Assembly (NCBI GenBank): GCA_903891095.1
Contig: CAITDI010000036.1
Coordinates: 62,001-126,000, forward strand
Reading direction: 5' to 3'
Source: an uncultured bacterium
GTDB taxonomy: Bacteria > Planctomycetota > Phycisphaerae > Phycisphaerales > SM1A02
Length of the DNA stretch: 64,000 nt
Position 1 is the stretch's first letter, and each line of letters opens with the position of its first letter. The position numbers were made by a program, and so were the translations under genes. Of the stretch, positions 17,663 to 52,269 are shown in pieces. A model generated the notes under the pieces. It saw only the letters and a list, made by a program, of their open reading frames with translations, had not been told where the DNA came from and ran no database searches.

Positions 17663-18076
17663 ATGTCCGACCGAAGCGCGTTCCCAACCACGCAGGCGAC
17701 CTGGCTCGCGACGCTCGTCGGCGACGAAGTTGCGAGTGCAAACACGACGCAAACAGCGGAGATGGCGCGGGTTTTCGTGATGGAGCGCTACGCCGGGCCG
17801 CTCGCGGTCTTTGTCCGCGGGTCAAGCCTTGCGCGCGTTGGCGAGCCTGCGGACATCGTGAACGGGTTCTTCGCGGCGAGGCTCTCGGACGCTGACTTTC
17901 TCCGCGCGTGGCATCGCAGCGGCATGCGGCTGCGGCGATGGCTGATGAACGGGATCCTGTTCTACGGCCAGGGGCTCGCGCGCGACCGTGCGCGGTTGGC
18001 GGAGTTGCTGCTGGAGGAGGGCGTGCCCGAGGGGGAGTTGGATGAGGAGATCGCGCGGGTGCGCGCGGCGTTGTGA
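17663..18076 (+). CDS. Short sigma-like protein (sigma region 2 only)
   Basis: A 137-residue protein whose middle (MERYAGPLAVFVRGSSLARVGEPADIVNGFFAARLSDADFL then LRRWLMNGILFYGQ) closely follows the N-terminal half of the 235-residue sigma-like protein at 47496-48203. Both resemble ECF sigma region 2. The region-4 DNA-binding half is absent here and replaced by an acidic tail (EEGVPEGELDEEIARVRAAL). It may be a decayed sigma factor or an independent regulator that binds core polymerase. It lies 88 bp from the divergent acyl-CoA dehydrogenase gene. Confidence 0.6.
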   Translation: MSDRSAFPTTQATWLATLVGDEVASANTTQTAEMARVFVMERYAGPLAVFVRGSSLARVGEPADIVNGFFAARLSDADFLRAWHRSGMRLRRWLMNGILFYGQGLARDRARLAELLLEEGVPEGELDEEIARVRAAL

Positions 18077-46303: not shown

Positions 46304-47245
46304 TTACGGGCAGGGGCCCCAGGCGCCGAGGACGATCGCGAGGTCGGAGCCGTTGACGATGCCGTCGTGGTTGCAGTCGGCACGCGGATAGTCGGTCGGA
46401 TTGGTACCCCAGCGGGCGAGAACGATCGCGAGGTCGATGCCGTCGGTTGCGTGACTCTGATCGATGTCGGAATCGCACACGGGCGCACACGCGGGGAACC
46501 CGCCGGCGGTGTTGCCGAGAGTTGGCGAGGTGGCGCTTCCTCCAGGATTCACAGCGACGCCGACATCACACTGAAAGTGGCTCGGACTCTCGTCGATCAG
46601 CGTGGTCGTGCCCGCCGCTTCGTTGAACTTAAGGAGCAGGAGCGTTTGGCTGTCCGCCGCAACTTCGCACTCAAAGGGCGGCGTGAAGGCGTCGAAGTAG
46701 CGGGGGGTAGAGCTCACGCGAATCCAGTCGATGTCGCCGAGGAAGGATGGCAGCGTGGGCTGTTGGTAGGTGTAACGAATCATCCCGATCGCCATCCAAG
46801 AGTCTGGCGAGTCGCCGAGGCAATTCGCCTGGGAAGGCCACTCAGCGTTGAGCGCGCCGTCGAGGTAGAGGCGCGCGATTGATCCTGAGCGAACCCAAGC
46901 GATGTGATGCCAGCCGTCGGAGAGCGAGGTGCTGGTCGGGCTTTGGTTCTCGCTTCCGCAGAAATAGCCGCGGACCATGGATCCATAGAAGCCCGTGGAT
47001 GAGAGATGAACGCCTTTGTCTTCGTAGGAATCCCGCTGCTCGGAGATGACCCGGTTCAAGGGCGCGCCCTTCGCCATGCGAACACGCATCTCGTAGGTGA
47101 AGTCCACCGTCGGAAAGACGGTGTTTCCCTGGATCCGAATCGTGTCACTCACCGCGCCGAAGTGCGCGTAGCCGCTGTTCTGCGCGAGCGCGCTCGATCC
47201 AGCGGTCATCGCCGCGACTGCTCCGAGGATTGCCATCCGCTTCAT
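46304..47245 (-). CDS. Exported LamG-like protein with GC-type dockerin end
   Basis: A 313-residue exported protein. The signal peptide (ILGAVAAMTAGSSALAQ) is followed by a concanavalin/LamG-like domain: VDFTYEMRVRMAKG, DGWHHIAWVRSGSIARLYLDGAL, GDIDWIRVSSTPRYF. The last 55 residues contain two calcium-loop repeats, DIDQSHATDGIDLAIVLARWG and DCNHDGIVNGSDLAIVLGAWGPCP, as in GC-type dockerin anchors. An in-frame start at 47509 would add 88 residues and overlap the sigma-like gene; it carries an internal hydrophobic segment. The short start is preferred. Likely a surface glycan-binding protein. Confidence 0.85.
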   Translation of the reverse strand: MKRMAILGAVAAMTAGSSALAQNSGYAHFGAVSDTIRIQGNTVFPTVDFTYEMRVRMAKGAPLNRVISEQRDSYEDKGVHLSSTGFYGSMVRGYFCGSENQSPTSTSLSDGWHHIAWVRSGSIARLYLDGALNAEWPSQANCLGDSPDSWMAIGMIRYTYQQPTLPSFLGDIDWIRVSSTPRYFDAFTPPFECEVAADSQTLLLLKFNEAAGTTTLIDESPSHFQCDVGVAVNPGGSATSPTLGNTAGGFPACAPVCDSDIDQSHATDGIDLAIVLARWGTNPTDYPRADCNHDGIVNGSDLAIVLGAWGPCP

Positions 47246-47495
47246 GCTCGTCTGCTCCGATTGCGCCGTGCGCTCGCGCGATGAAACGATTCGCGCGCGT
47301 GCGACGGCAGGACTTTGGGCAGACGAGAGAGACGCCGATGCGCCGCCATGCCAGAGCGCGGCGCAAATCGCGAGAAATACCGCGCAGCGGGAAGCGGCGC
47401 GCGAATGCCGGACGACGCGCGGCGCGGCCGCATCGCCCCGTGCGGCAAGCGCTTGCCGCAGGCGGGTGAGTTCCTCGCGCGAGAGACGGCGCCGG

Positions 47496-48203
47496 TCAGG
47501 AACTTGCATCGCCGTCGTCGAAGAGGATCGCGTCGAGTTCCCGCGCGCGCTCCGTGGGATCCGCGAGCTCCTCGGCCAGGATCGCGTCGATCTCCGCGCG
47601 CAGGCGGCGGAGCGCGGTGCGGGTGATCATCGGCGCGCTGGATGCGGGGATGGCGAGCTCGGACTCGAGCGCGGGGTACGCCGCGCCGTCGAGGATGTGC
47701 CGCAGGACCAGCCGCCACGCATCGGAGCGGCCCTCGCGCGCATAGAGCTCGGACACGCGATCGCACGCCGCTTGCAGGACACCGTCGCGCCATGCGCGTT
47801 CGAGCGCGCGCCACGGTGCGGGTTCGATGTTGGCCGGCGGCTCGGCGAGTTCCGTCGCGCGCCGCGCGCGGCGCTCGTCGGCGACGCGTTCGCGCGCGTA
47901 GAAGAGCAGGCCGTTGACGAGCCATCGGCGTAGCGGCAGGGGCGGATACTCGCGCAGCCAGCGCACGAGATACTCGTCGCGCGCGAATCGCGATGCGAAG
48001 AAGCCGCCAACGAGATCCTCAGCTGACGCGATGCTGCGAAGGCTCGACGCGCGTGCGTAGGCGCAGAGCGGCGCGTAGGCGCGGGACATCACGTGATGGC
48101 GCGCGTCGCGGAGATCGCCGCGGCCGATCGCCTCGGTGATGAAGGTGCGCTGCGTCGAGGGGAATTCGTCGAGGAGCGGCATCAAACCATCGTAACTGCT
48201 CAT
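47496..48203 (-). CDS. Sigma-like protein closing the ECF-kinase operon
   Basis: A 235-residue protein. Residues about 35-115 (MSRAYAPLCAYARASSLRSIASAEDLVGGFFASRFARDEYLVRWL, LPLRRWLVNGLLFYARERVAD) resemble ECF sigma region 2; the C-terminal half (VSELYAREGRSDAWRLVLRHILDGAAYPALESEL then MITRTALRRLRAEI) could be region 4. The similarity to classic ECF factors is weak, so it may be a diverged sigma or sigma-interacting factor. Its ATG overlaps the kinase stop by 4 bp. Confidence 0.65.
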   Translation of the reverse strand: MSSYDGLMPLLDEFPSTQRTFITEAIGRGDLRDARHHVMSRAYAPLCAYARASSLRSIASAEDLVGGFFASRFARDEYLVRWLREYPPLPLRRWLVNGLLFYARERVADERRARRATELAEPPANIEPAPWRALERAWRDGVLQAACDRVSELYAREGRSDAWRLVLRHILDGAAYPALESELAIPASSAPMITRTALRRLRAEIDAILAEELADPTERARELDAILFDDGDASS

Positions 48204-50746
48204 TCTCTGATCGGCTGCGGCGTGGCGCGGAGAAGGATCGCGATGCGTTCGCCGACCTGAAGCACCAGATCCGCTGGTGCGCGACTGTTGTTGATGGAGC
48301 GAAGGAAGCGGTCCGTGCGTTCGAGGTCGCGGGTTAGTTCCTCGCGGAAACCGAGTTCGGCGGCGAGCGTGGCGTGCCGATCGATCGCCGCGGCGAAGGA
48401 TGTGTAGGCGGTGTACGGATCCTCTGCCGCCACATCGGTGGAGAGAGCGTCGCCGAGGATCTCGAGGGCCTTCAGGCGACCAGCGCTGGGATTGATGTCC
48501 GCGTTCCGGTGGAGCGCGAGTTCGGCGCGCGCGAGCGCGAAATTGCGGATGTCGGAGTGATCGAGAGTCAGGTGCTTCGATCGGACTACTTCGTCGAGCG
48601 TCTCAAGTGATTTTGTGCATGCATCCCACTCGCCCGCTTGAGCCAGGCGGAACGGTGTGACTTGGAAGTAGTGCAGCGTTACGCAGTGTCGCGTGAGTCG
48701 CGACTTGAACTCGTCGAGCTCATGCTCGATCAGTGCGAGTTCAATGAGAATCGGGCTGAGTTCGGGATTGCGTGCCACGGGGAGATCAGCGGACAGAAGC
48801 ATGTTCGCGCGTGACGCGATCGACCTTGTCTGCCGTCGAACCATCGGATCCGAACTCGCGGCGAGCCGGCGCAGGATCTGGACGCAATTTCGGAGGTTTG
48901 CGAGGTGTTGGTCGTTCAGGATCTCGCCCTGCTGCGTCGACTTGTGCGCGGCTATGACGAGGCGGCTGAGCGCGGCCATGAGCACCTCCGGGCTGTCCGG
49001 CTCTTGCCGCACGAGGAGCTCGGCCACATGCGCGCTCATCGTCGGGTTGCCGTAGTAGTCCACCGCGGCAATCACCGAGAGAGGTTCGGCCCGGACGATC
49101 GCGTATTGACTGAGGAGCGTGGGAATCAGCGTGTCTAAGGCGCTCCGCGCTGCCTGGTTGTTCGGGTCCCGCGCCAGCCTTGCGTAGAGCGAATCGAGAT
49201 TTCGCATGCCGGCGATCGCACCCTTTGGGTCGTTGATGCGGGACTCGATGAGCTCGCGGGCGATGGCGCACCGTTCGGCTTCCGTGACGAGCCCGAGAGA
49301 CAAGCAGGCGTACTGCAATGTCTGCGGAATCTGGAGCTTTCCGTCGAGCTGATCGAGCGGCATGGCCGCTGCTGCCATGCGCTCGAGATTCTGAACGCGC
49401 GAGCGCAGATATTCCTCAACCGAGAGCGATCGGACTTCAGGCTTCGCGATGTCGTCAGGAAGGAAGATCTGGAGAAACGAACCGTAGACCTCGCCGGTCT
49501 TGGTTGCCAGCGCACCGGCTTCGATCGCTGCGCGGCGGGCGTACAGAGCGTAGTAGGTCGAGACTGCTGTGGCAGCGATCAGGCAGAGAAAGACGGCGAT
49601 CACGAGCGCGGCCGCAACTGGATTGCGTCGCACGGCGAGGCGCAGGCGCGCGGCCGCGTTTGGCGGCGCGGCGGCGACAGGCCGATGCGCAAGCAGCGCA
49701 CGCAGATCGTCCGACAGCGCGGCGACCGTGCGATAGCGCTGCTCGGGGTCGCGCGCGGTGGCCTTCGCGATGATCGCGGCGAGATCGCCTCGCGTCTCCC
49801 GCGCCGCGTCGGCTGGGGGTGCAAAGCTCACCGTTGCGAGCGCACGCAGCAGCGCGATCGGATCGCGCTGCGAGAGCCCGGCAGGAAGCGCGCCGAACGC
49901 GAGCTCGTAGAGGATGACGCCAAGTGCGTAGATGTCGGCGCGTGCATCGACGAGCGACGGATCGTGGTCGAGCGCCTCGGGTGCGAGGTACGCCGGCGTT
50001 CCGCACCAGGCGACGGGATCGGCGATGCGCGCGTCCGCGGAAGGCAGCGCGATGCCGAAGTCGATGACCTTCACGCGGCCTGCCGCGTCGACGAGGATGT
50101 TGGACGGCTTGAGGTCGCGGTGGATGAAGCCCGCGGCGTGCGCGTGCGCGATCGCGTCGGCGACATCGGCGAGCAGCGCGATGCGCGTGCGGAGCGGTTG
50201 CGTCCTCGCCGCATCGACCAGGGTCTGCGCGCCGTCGATCAGTTCCATCGCAATCCAGCCGAATCCGCCGTCGATTCCGCTGGCGTGGATCGTCGCGATG
50301 CCAGGATGGCGAAGCGCCGCGAGCGCCTCTGGTTCGCGGACCGCGGCGCTTCGTGTCGCCGCGTGCGCATCGAGCCGCGCGACCTTGAGCGCGACTTCGC
50401 GCGTGGGATTCGACTGACGTGCGCGCCAGACCTCGCCCATGCCGCCCGAGCCGATCTGCTCGAGGAGCTCGAATCCACCGATCCTGCTGCCCGCGACGAG
50501 ATGCGGATGAGGCGCGGGGCCCGTCGATGTGGTCGCGGCGAAACCGGTGATCACGATGGTCGGTCGATCGGCGTTGGCTAGGAGCGAGGCCAGTTGACGC
50601 GCGAGATCGGGATCATCTTCGCTCAGCTTCGCGAGCGCGGCTGCACGTGCGGCGCGGTCGAGCTCGAGCAAGCGGCCGAAGGCGATGACGGTGCGGCCGG
50701 TCGGCATGCCCGCGCCGTTGGTGTCGGTCTCGAAAGGCTGCATCAT
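48200..50746 (-). CDS. Transmembrane Ser/Thr protein kinase of an ECF-coupled operon
   Basis: An 848-residue Hanks-type kinase. The N-terminal 85 residues carry a helical segment typical of planctomycete kinases (DPDLARQLASLLANAD). The kinase domain spans about residues 90-355: GSGGMGEV (99-106), ALKVAR with Lys121, IHRDLKPSNILVD (208-220), DFG (229-231), CGTPAYLAPEALD. A single helix (AAALVIAVFLCLIAATAVSTYYA, about 378-400) anchors it in the membrane. The remaining 440 residues form an outer, helical sensor-like region without known domains. It overlaps both neighbours by 4 bp. It presumably senses a signal outside and phosphorylates a sigma or anti-sigma component. Confidence 0.9.
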   Translation of the reverse strand: MMQPFETDTNGAGMPTGRTVIAFGRLLELDRAARAAALAKLSEDDPDLARQLASLLANADRPTIVITGFAATTSTGPAPHPHLVAGSRIGGFELLEQIGSGGMGEVWRARQSNPTREVALKVARLDAHAATRSAAVREPEALAALRHPGIATIHASGIDGGFGWIAMELIDGAQTLVDAARTQPLRTRIALLADVADAIAHAHAAGFIHRDLKPSNILVDAAGRVKVIDFGIALPSADARIADPVAWCGTPAYLAPEALDHDPSLVDARADIYALGVILYELAFGALPAGLSQRDPIALLRALATVSFAPPADAARETRGDLAAIIAKATARDPEQRYRTVAALSDDLRALLAHRPVAAAPPNAAARLRLAVRRNPVAAALVIAVFLCLIAATAVSTYYALYARRAAIEAGALATKTGEVYGSFLQIFLPDDIAKPEVRSLSVEEYLRSRVQNLERMAAAAMPLDQLDGKLQIPQTLQYACLSLGLVTEAERCAIARELIESRINDPKGAIAGMRNLDSLYARLARDPNNQAARSALDTLIPTLLSQYAIVRAEPLSVIAAVDYYGNPTMSAHVAELLVRQEPDSPEVLMAALSRLVIAAHKSTQQGEILNDQHLANLRNCVQILRRLAASSDPMVRRQTRSIASRANMLLSADLPVARNPELSPILIELALIEHELDEFKSRLTRHCVTLHYFQVTPFRLAQAGEWDACTKSLETLDEVVRSKHLTLDHSDIRNFALARAELALHRNADINPSAGRLKALEILGDALSTDVAAEDPYTAYTSFAAAIDRHATLAAELGFREELTRDLERTDRFLRSINNSRAPADLVLQVGERIAILLRATPQPIRE

Positions 50747-51327
50747 GGCGTGTATTTCGGCTTCGTTTCGGTCGCTTCGGCTGATCGTTGCACATCGAGT
50801 TGCGTGACGAGCCACGTGCGCGCGAAGGCGACGTCGCGCTTCGCCTGCGTGGCGGAGACTCCGAGCGCGATGGCGATGCGGTCGGGCGAAATACCGCCGA
50901 AGATGCGCATCTCGAGCGCCTTCGCTTGCTTCGGATGATCGGCCGCGAGCCGTTGCAGCAGTTCGTCGACGAGGATGATCTCGGCGGGATCCGCAGGATG
51001 GGCAGCGAAATCCGAGGGAAGTTCGCTCGGCGCCTTTCGCGCTCCGCGCTTGAGCGAGGACGCCGCGCGCGCCGCGTCGACCAGCGCCCGTCGCGCGACG
51101 AGCGATGCGAGCGCGAGGAGATGCTGTTGGTCGTTCGCGGGATTGCGGTCGCTTCGTGCGAGGCGCAGCCAGACTTCGTGCACGAGCGATGTGGTGCCGG
51201 GACCGGTCTTCGGGTTCTCGCCGCGCAATGCGCTCGAAGCGATGGCGCGCAGCTCGTCGTAGAGCGAAGCGTCGATCTGCCGAAGCGGATCGTCCTTCGC
51301 GGGATGATCGGATTGGTCTTTGCCCAT
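50743..51327 (-). CDS. ECF sigma factor coupled to the kinase
   Basis: A 194-residue sigma factor of the ECF group linked to Ser/Thr kinases in planctomycetes. Region 2 is seen in LYDELRAIASSALRGENPKTGPGTTSLVHEVWLRLARSD and FRAxxHLLALASLVARRALVDAARA-like positions; region 4 in LAADHPKQAKALEMRIFGGISPDRIAIALGVSATQAKRDVAFARTWL. GGGGAGAAG precedes the start. The stop overlaps the start of the kinase (ATGA). It directs core RNA polymerase to its own promoter set. Confidence 0.9.
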   Translation of the reverse strand: MGKDQSDHPAKDDPLRQIDASLYDELRAIASSALRGENPKTGPGTTSLVHEVWLRLARSDRNPANDQQHLLALASLVARRALVDAARAASSLKRGARKAPSELPSDFAAHPADPAEIILVDELLQRLAADHPKQAKALEMRIFGGISPDRIAIALGVSATQAKRDVAFARTWLVTQLDVQRSAEATETKPKYTP

Positions 51328-51483: not shown

Positions 51484-52269
51484 ATGCACAAGTTCAGAGT
51501 TTGGATGGCTCCCGCCGCGTTGGCGGGCGTCGTGTTGTCTGCTTCGCCGGCGTTGGCCGGCGACGCTGCGAAGAAGGCGGATTTCGGCGGGTTCTATGTC
51601 GGCACCGACATCGGCGTGAGCCTTGTCCCGAGCGTGAAGATCAAGGACTACACCCCGGCTGATCCGTCGGTTGTCGGCATCTCTGGAGTGGAGGCGCAGA
51701 CCTCGGCTGGTGTCGCCGTGAACTTCGACGTCGGCTTCAAGCTGACCGAGGCGTTCTCGATCGAGCTCGAGGGCGGCTACTACCGCAACGGTTTCGACGG
51801 ATTCTCGTCTGGCGAGTTCGTGGTTGCAGGTCTTGGAGCGACCGACGTCATCGGCGGCTCTGGCAACTTCCGGCAGATCCCGATCTTCCTGAACGGCAAG
51901 TTCGAGCTGCCGCTCACCACGCCGAACGCGGGTTCGGACGGCGGCGCGCTCAAGCTTGAGCTCATGGCGGGTATCGGCGCCGTGAATGTTGGCGCGAACA
52001 TCACGGATATCGCGGCGAACGGCATTCCCGGCGTGACCGCGACGGTCGACGGCAACAGCTGGGAGCTCGGTGGCCAGCTCGGCATCGGACTCGCGTGGGA
52101 ACTCAACTCACGCGTGAACCTCGGCGTCGGCTACCGCTTCATGATGGTGAACTCCGCGAACTTCGGAACCGCGACCTTCAGCGATCCGGCGCTTGTCGGC
52201 ATTGCCGACGTGCAGTCGGAATCCGTGTTCACGCACGCGATCCAGGCGACGCTGTCGATCGAGTTCTGA
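51484..52269 (+). CDS. Outer membrane beta-barrel protein
   Basis: A 261-residue exported protein with a signal peptide (AALAGVVLSASPALAG) and an 8-strand-like OmpA-type barrel: GGFYVGTDIGVSLV, AVNFDVGFKLTEAFSIELEGGYYRNGF, FRQIPIFLNGKFELPL, LKLELMAGIGAVNVGAN, GGQLGIGLAWELNSRVNLGVGYRFMMV, and a terminal HAIQATLSIEF with the aromatic C-terminal residue recognised by the BAM machinery. It lies 157 bp from the divergent ECF operon and could be a target of it. Confidence 0.88.
   Translation: MHKFRVWMAPAALAGVVLSASPALAGDAAKKADFGGFYVGTDIGVSLVPSVKIKDYTPADPSVVGISGVEAQTSAGVAVNFDVGFKLTEAFSIELEGGYYRNGFDGFSSGEFVVAGLGATDVIGGSGNFRQIPIFLNGKFELPLTTPNAGSDGGALKLELMAGIGAVNVGANITDIAANGIPGVTATVDGNSWELGGQLGIGLAWELNSRVNLGVGYRFMMVNSANFGTATFSDPALVGIADVQSESVFTHAIQATLSIEF

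Follow-up and report, generated by a model that had tools for sequence, protein, structure and literature searches.

An uncultured member of the Phycisphaerales (lineage SM1A02) carries, in a stretch of 64,000 nucleotides that we call the window (assembly GCA_903891095.1, contig CAITDI010000036.1, positions 62,001 to 126,000 of the forward strand), three overlapping minus-strand genes for an extracytoplasmic function (ECF) sigma factor (P0001), a transmembrane Hanks-type Ser/Thr kinase and a second sigma-like protein (P0003), here named SigC. An earlier note had placed the three in one operon. Their coordinates are confirmed (Table 1), and, as judged from gene order in related genomes, the locus is two signalling modules side by side and not one operon unit, the second module comprising SigC and the LamG-dockerin gene that follows it. 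We incline to the reading that this second module is one of many pairs of sigma factor and membrane sensor resembling the sigI-RsgI pairs of clostridia, in which the sensor gene would have two starts, and that it lies beside a separate ECF43-like module. The closest named ortholog record is QWPT01000001.1, from isolate ZH-13MAY13-plancto13, a Lake Zurich-type Planctomycetota metagenome-assembled genome.

The partner gene and its two predicted starts

The LamG gene, as first called, starts too late on the evidence of its upstream sequence. The earlier note had put its start at 47245; there is indeed an internal start at that position, but a fourth overlapping frame begins at 47509, inside the SigC gene. 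SigC and the LamG signal peptide are separated by 88 codons, which in each of the eight orthologs form an open frame continuous with that of LamG. In this frame the non-synonymous substitution rate is below the synonymous rate in 27 of 28 ortholog pairs (the pairs not being independent), and the comparison is inconsistent in the other two frames. The encoded segment has a basic amphipathic stretch with an invariant R-L-R-x-A-L, a transmembrane (TM) helix and an invariant W-H. The reading frame, the selection upon it, the overlap of the partner start with the SigC stop and the internal start are features that the sequence evidence supports.

The arrangement is common to sigma-linked dockerin genes, which encode a short cytoplasmic part, a TM helix, a linker of about 20–50 residues and then a Met with a signal peptide. 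An in-frame TM helix and internal signal peptide are found in 39 of the 46 such genes with a complete 5' side, and in just one of the 28 dockerin genes that lie elsewhere in the window's own genome; other genera replicate the layout in 14 of 17 cases by our own count. Of 22 sigma-to-dockerin pairs, 19 have a partner gene that begins before the stop codon of the sigma gene is complete, and in 11 of these the two genes share exactly 4 nucleotides (ATGA or GTGA). Upstream of the inner Met, 21 of 39 modules have a site that matches AGGAGG at 5 or more of its 6 positions, compared with 1/39 and 0/39 in control windows, and the signal peptides that follow this Met typically end in A-x-A, with Q next; the window's own Shine–Dalgarno (SD)-like site before Met89 matches at 4 of 6 positions. 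Both starts appear to be under selection, because the inner Met has an SD-like site as well as a signal peptide.

Pairs of this kind are numerous. We collected 84 full-length relatives of SigC, and matches number 3–18 per genome in 16 genomes of the same genus. A dockerin gene on the same strand directly adjoins 57 of the 84 (29 in the order dockerin-to-sigma and 28 in the order sigma-to-dockerin), where our estimate of the chance expectation, from 91 dockerin matches in the 3.6-Mb genome of the window, is about 4%. The outer domains of the sigma-linked partners include LamG, C-type lectin and beta-helix, and others resemble RCC1 repeats by eye. The LamG-dockerin gene, proposed earlier as a possible regulon member, is more than that, being a conserved and translationally overlapping partner of SigC. 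Its dockerin-like tail was compared with PF00404, the profile of the duplicated Ca-binding F-hand repeat of type I dockerins, and falls below the cut-off in the window and above it in the orthologs at L047 and L050 (26.6 and 26.2 bits).

Two side observations concern the outer part of these proteins. Many partners share a motif, H....GSL, some eight residues past the TM helix (HAAPTTGSL, HASLGTGSL, HNPAPSGSL), which could be a site of protease action or self-cleavage. In addition, the single LamG domain of the window corresponds to a tandem pair in the ortholog of genome G008 (L047, 2731–4647, minus strand), a duplication of the outer domain between close relatives.

SigC as a probable sigma factor

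SigC is a protein of 235 residues with sigma2 and sigma4 folds and no sigma3, as indicated by an AlphaFold2 model built from the family alignment (mean predicted local distance difference test score 89.7, predicted template modelling score 0.82) and by structure alignment. When this model was compared with the PDB using Foldseek, the first seven matches were ECF sigma factors or their complexes (SigL, AlgU, SigH and others; probability 0.89–1.00). The Z scores given by VIA-align, which at this size may be unspecific amongst helical proteins, were 9.3 against sigma4 of E. coli SigE (2h27), 8.8 against 1or7, taken over its two domains, and 8.0 against the region-2 part of SigW (5wuq). The earlier note had held the third protein to be sigma-like and had named structure comparison as the means by which this could fall; the comparison returned ECF sigma factors at the top, and the assignment is borne out by the predicted fold and by the profile matches of relatives.

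Profile searches gave a more divided answer. SigC alone has no Pfam match, no PDB sequence match and no relevant NCBIfam model, and neither SigC nor the A1 profile, when searched against PDB sequences, retrieved a significant sigma factor. Amongst the 31 family representatives that were profile-scanned, however, 13 match TIGR02937 (best 1.6e-4) and seven match Sigma70_r4_2. It is because nearly all of the top fold matches are sigma factors over both domains, taken together with these profile matches, that SigC is assigned as an ECF-type sigma factor, a conclusion which sequence and model support. At the position of the DAED motif of ECF sigma factors, SigC has the acidic SAED, and of the 84 family members 76 have Asp or Glu as the fourth residue of the motif and 59 have one of the two as the first.

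Proposed mechanism and its alternatives

In the scheme that we favour, the long form of the partner would be translated by coupling to SigC and would be a bitopic protein, with a cytoplasmic helix of about 37 residues and the LamG-dockerin part outside, a topology that would require the alanine-rich inner signal peptide to pass the translocon. The short form, starting at the internal Met, would be exported by its own signal peptide and secreted. By analogy with sigI-RsgI, the long form may serve as the anti-sigma factor of SigC, holding it at the membrane and releasing it upon ligand binding or cleavage. Pairs of this layout are numerous in the genus and in related genera and, because their outer domains differ, each would respond to a surface ligand or polymer of its own.

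A bolder version is put forward tentatively, and we hold it to be possible rather than probable: that this is a cell-surface signalling system not described before, in which many ECF-type sigma factors of planctomycetes are each coupled in translation to a dual-start gene, the source of a membrane-anchored anti-sigma factor or sensor as well as of a secreted lectin-dockerin protein that has the same outer domain, the secreted product or its ligand competing with, or signalling to, the tethered twin, and in which dockerin partners replaced kinase or soluble ones in a single switch.

Several observations weigh against the scheme of sigma factor and tethered sensor. No Pfam anti-sigma domain was matched in the ten extensions that were scanned (RsgI_N and FecR likewise gave no match), and the cytoplasmic part is very short. 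The codon-usage score of the extension is negative, at -12 in its own frame, although the alternative frames score lower still (-17 and -23). The 401-residue partner was modelled with low confidence (47.6), so that the model lends no more than weak support to helices at residues 11–25 and 37–53. The Foldseek E-values for SigC are modest, at 0.03–0.17 (best 0.029), and the superposition over the whole length is loose. A search for spaced dyads and 7-mers upstream of the modules found no shared promoter motif, the only matches being GC-rich or driven by orthologs. Finally, binding between SigC and its partner, the two products and their transcription are predictions from sequence.

The want of a recognisable anti-sigma domain and the brevity of the cytoplasmic part would also suit a plainer arrangement, in which the extension is no anti-sigma factor but a sigma factor is co-expressed with a surface protein, the long form just anchoring the lectin, and SigC is controlled in another way (by transcription or proteolysis). 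That the secreted form has a start and signal peptide of its own is likewise in keeping with this. We consider the arrangement unlikely, as the TM extension is almost confined to dockerin genes that adjoin a sigma gene, and the start of the partner is fused to the stop of the sigma gene, as expected for sigma/anti-sigma pairs.

It is less probable still that SigC has kept the likeness of a sigma factor but lost the function, having become, for instance, a DNA-binding adaptor. SigC itself lies below detection in Pfam and NCBIfam, the region-2 sequence of the family is unlike that of known ECF sigma factors, and truncated copies exist; against this stand the prediction of both sigma2 and sigma4 folds with high confidence, the retention of the acidic motif that contacts RNA polymerase, and the existence of as many as 84 full-length copies.

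Two modules side by side

The third possibility, and to our minds a very improbable one, is a single circuit in which the kinase phosphorylates both the ECF sigma factor and SigC, or in which SigC serves the ECF–kinase system as an alternative sigma subunit: the genes overlap in the window and wider relatives of SigC lie directly upstream of kinases (L184-L186; L077, L079, L091), but a kinase is directly upstream of SigC in only three of nine SigC orthologs (those of the window's own genome, G008 and G014), genome G006 has SigC and LamG without an ECF ortholog, the conserved neighbour of the ECF gene is the kinase, and acidic residues are kept at the DAED position of SigC. Both forms of the proposal had been raised in the earlier note. 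SigC as a target of the kinase is rejected on synteny and on its acidic motif, and SigC as a further subunit of that system finds no support, the SigC–LamG pair recurring without a kinase. The position of the wider relatives does suggest that the SigC lineage was ancestrally kinase-linked.

The gene order in other genomes is as follows. In G001, G003, G006 and G011 there is no kinase immediately upstream of SigC; where gene calls resolve, that place is taken by a homolog of the window gene at 53173-52397, and the LamG-dockerin gene is found downstream wherever the contig permits. G006 has contiguous synteny, with a phosphatase-like gene, the homolog of 53173-52397, SigC, LamG, a dus-like gene, a PEP-CTERM-like gene and ATP synthase epsilon; the block is without the ECF, kinase or barrel genes, and an ECF ortholog was not found in the genome, which is 96% complete. 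G015 and G031 retain SigC–LamG in different surroundings. Because each set stays together independently across genomes, we conclude that the barrel–ECF–kinase block was placed beside the SigC–LamG block.

ATGA overlaps are present at both ECF/kinase and kinase/SigC, as had been noted earlier, but the second is not kept in orthologs, which have gaps of 36 and 62 nucleotides. The SigC start at 48203 is itself doubtful, because the orthologs begin at a Met equivalent to 48182, where there is no ATGA; 48182 is probably the real start.

The kinase-paired ECF sigma factor

The pairing of an ECF sigma factor with a kinase, regarded earlier as a known planctomycete arrangement, is borne out. A Hanks kinase gene adjoins the ECF ortholog in all five genomes that have one, and the divergent barrel gene beside the ECF gene is kept in the same five, so that the whole set stays together. 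The catalytic motifs of the kinase are intact (GSGGMG, VALK, HRD, DFG and APE). ECF43 sigma factors have an uncharged motif, such as the STTA of EcfP, in the place of the acidic DAED, and they regain the charge when Thr is phosphorylated (PMC8103513, PMC8999054, PMC13147305). The window ECF resembles those of the ECF43 pairs EcfP–PknT and EcfK–PknS in having an uncharged TT motif in place of DAED and an adjoining transmembrane Hanks kinase (PMC8103513, PMC8999054, PMC13147305); it differs in being a planctomycete sequence with a divergent barrel gene, and is called ECF43-like here by its motif and neighbourhood. The motif, GTTS, is the same in the orthologs of G008, G011 and G003. Since the window ECF carries the uncharged GTTS and SigC the acidic SAED, the former and not the latter is the expected target of the kinase, and SigC can probably bind RNA polymerase in its unphosphorylated state. 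By homology, then, the first module would be an ECF43-like circuit in which the transmembrane kinase phosphorylates a Thr of GTTS and so allows binding to RNA polymerase.

Table 1. Coordinates in the window of the genes and predicted elements of the two modules.
Feature	Position	Strand	Basis or remark
ECF sigma factor, ECF43-like, kinase-paired (module 1)	50743..51327	-	PF07638 6.5e-31, TIGR02999 2.6e-40
GTTS motif (residues 44-47) in place of acidic DAED, predicted phospho-Thr switch	51187..51198	-	shared with orthologs
Hanks-type Ser/Thr kinase, one TM helix, long C-terminal region	48200..50746	-	PF00069 2.7e-39
Kinase TM segment	about 49620-49545	-	read from sequence
Outer-membrane beta-barrel gene, divergent from ECF	51484..52269	+	PF13505 2.1e-8
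SigC, two-domain ECF-like sigma factor (module 2)	47496..48203	-	AlphaFold2 model, PDB matches, family profiles
SAED (residues 60-63), acidic motif at DAED position of SigC	48015..48026	-	family conservation
Full-length partner gene, 401 residues	46304..47509	-	cytoplasmic segment, TM helix, linker, internal signal peptide, LamG, dockerin
Predicted cytoplasmic segment (residues 1-37, 'REELTRLRQALA' helix), candidate sigma-binding part	47399..47509	-	invariant R-L-R-x-A-L in A2
Predicted TM helix, then G-G	47342..47395	-	hydropathy; invariant W53 H54 at outer end
Internal start Met89, SD-like GGAG upstream, signal peptide ending in ALA, with Q next	47180..47245	-	SD-like site
LamG/ConA-like lectin domain	46706..47149	-	PF13385 9.6e-10
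Dockerin-like tail	46331..46468	-	PF00404 E=0.0015, 19.1 bits (cut-off 22.9)

The SigC family and its history

The family tree shows a two-way split, with support from the Shimodaira–Hasegawa-like approximate likelihood ratio test of 84 and 88, into groups of 35 and 64 rows. A dockerin partner is present in 58 of the 64, several of the other six lying at contig ends or being divergent, and in none of the 35, the neighbours of which are mostly a kinase or a soluble protein of about 150 residues. The gene order in the wider relatives is sigma, then in some cases a small protein, then kinase. Kinase-linked planctomycete sigma factors that match at 80–90 bits (L184-L186) belong to the same sigma lineage by profile; their neighbours are a kinase and, in many cases, a small soluble protein, whereas the SigC clade has dockerin partners instead. 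The simplest history that these sequences suggest is one change of partner, from kinase or soluble protein to dockerin. Within the clade that lacks dockerin partners, the gene for the soluble protein of about 150 residues lies downstream of the sigma gene and overlaps it by ATGA or GTGA (L069, L095, L099, L100, L226 and L227), and this protein is a candidate for the ancestral soluble partner.

Other members of the family are of interest in their own right. A truncated SigC paralog in the window (17678-18001, plus strand), with its region-2 part fused straight to the last helix and the middle absent, is probably a pseudogene or deletion product. At L044 (3681-4139, minus strand; G000:C36 around 31824) the N-terminal half of a SigC-family protein is joined to a dockerin-like tail that contains VLGA repeats, and at L180 the sigma factor and the dockerin tail share a single frame; the two fusions suggest recombination or repeat collapse within sigma–dockerin modules. 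Family members are frequently at contig ends (for example G001:C2:9-557, G001:C4:46-699 and G002:C49 near its end), and their copy numbers are probably underestimated, because the repeated parts of the modules seem to break assemblies. In other genera, sigma–dockerin pairs also occur in tandem arrays at least two deep (L211, L215, L216 and L213).

Relation to known systems and significance

Clostridium thermocellum has several copies of the sigI-RsgI pair, in which the sigma and anti-sigma genes mostly overlap and the outer binding domains differ (PMC4711584). The likeness to the modules described here lies in the several paralogous, mostly overlapping pairs of sigma factor and membrane protein per genome, in the cytoplasmic N-terminus, single TM helix and variable outer domain of carbohydrate-binding type (a topology that is predicted here), and in an organism rich in dockerin proteins (PMC4711584). 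There are also differences: SigC is ECF-like rather than of the sigI type, the partner has no RsgI_N domain and a cytoplasmic part of about 37 residues compared with the N-terminal segment of approximately 165 residues in RsgI, and the partner itself ends in a dockerin tail and has, in addition, an internal start followed by a signal peptide. In cell-surface signalling of the FecI/FecR type, an ECF sigma factor is likewise encoded adjacent to a bitopic membrane regulator, with many paralogs per genome. The SigC modules share these attributes; they differ in that the partner has no FecR domain and bears the receptor domain itself, and in that the module includes no outer-membrane transporter.

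Freshwater Phycisphaerae are common in lakes and are known for their many sigma factors and dockerin proteins (PMC6461901). A text search of the literature for sigma or anti-sigma factors with dockerins in Planctomycetes found only a cellulosome survey. For annotation, the present analysis implies that the annotated starts of dockerin genes adjoining sigma genes are probably too late. The SigC lineage may also be a case in which the partner of a sigma lineage has switched from a kinase to a membrane sensor. If the proposed pairs are what they appear to be, the Phycisphaerae of lakes would have their own repertoire of sigma-linked surface sensors, comparable to that of the clostridial sigI-RsgI; this would help to explain the richness of such genomes in sigma factors and dockerin proteins, and the ligand and regulon of each module would become testable.

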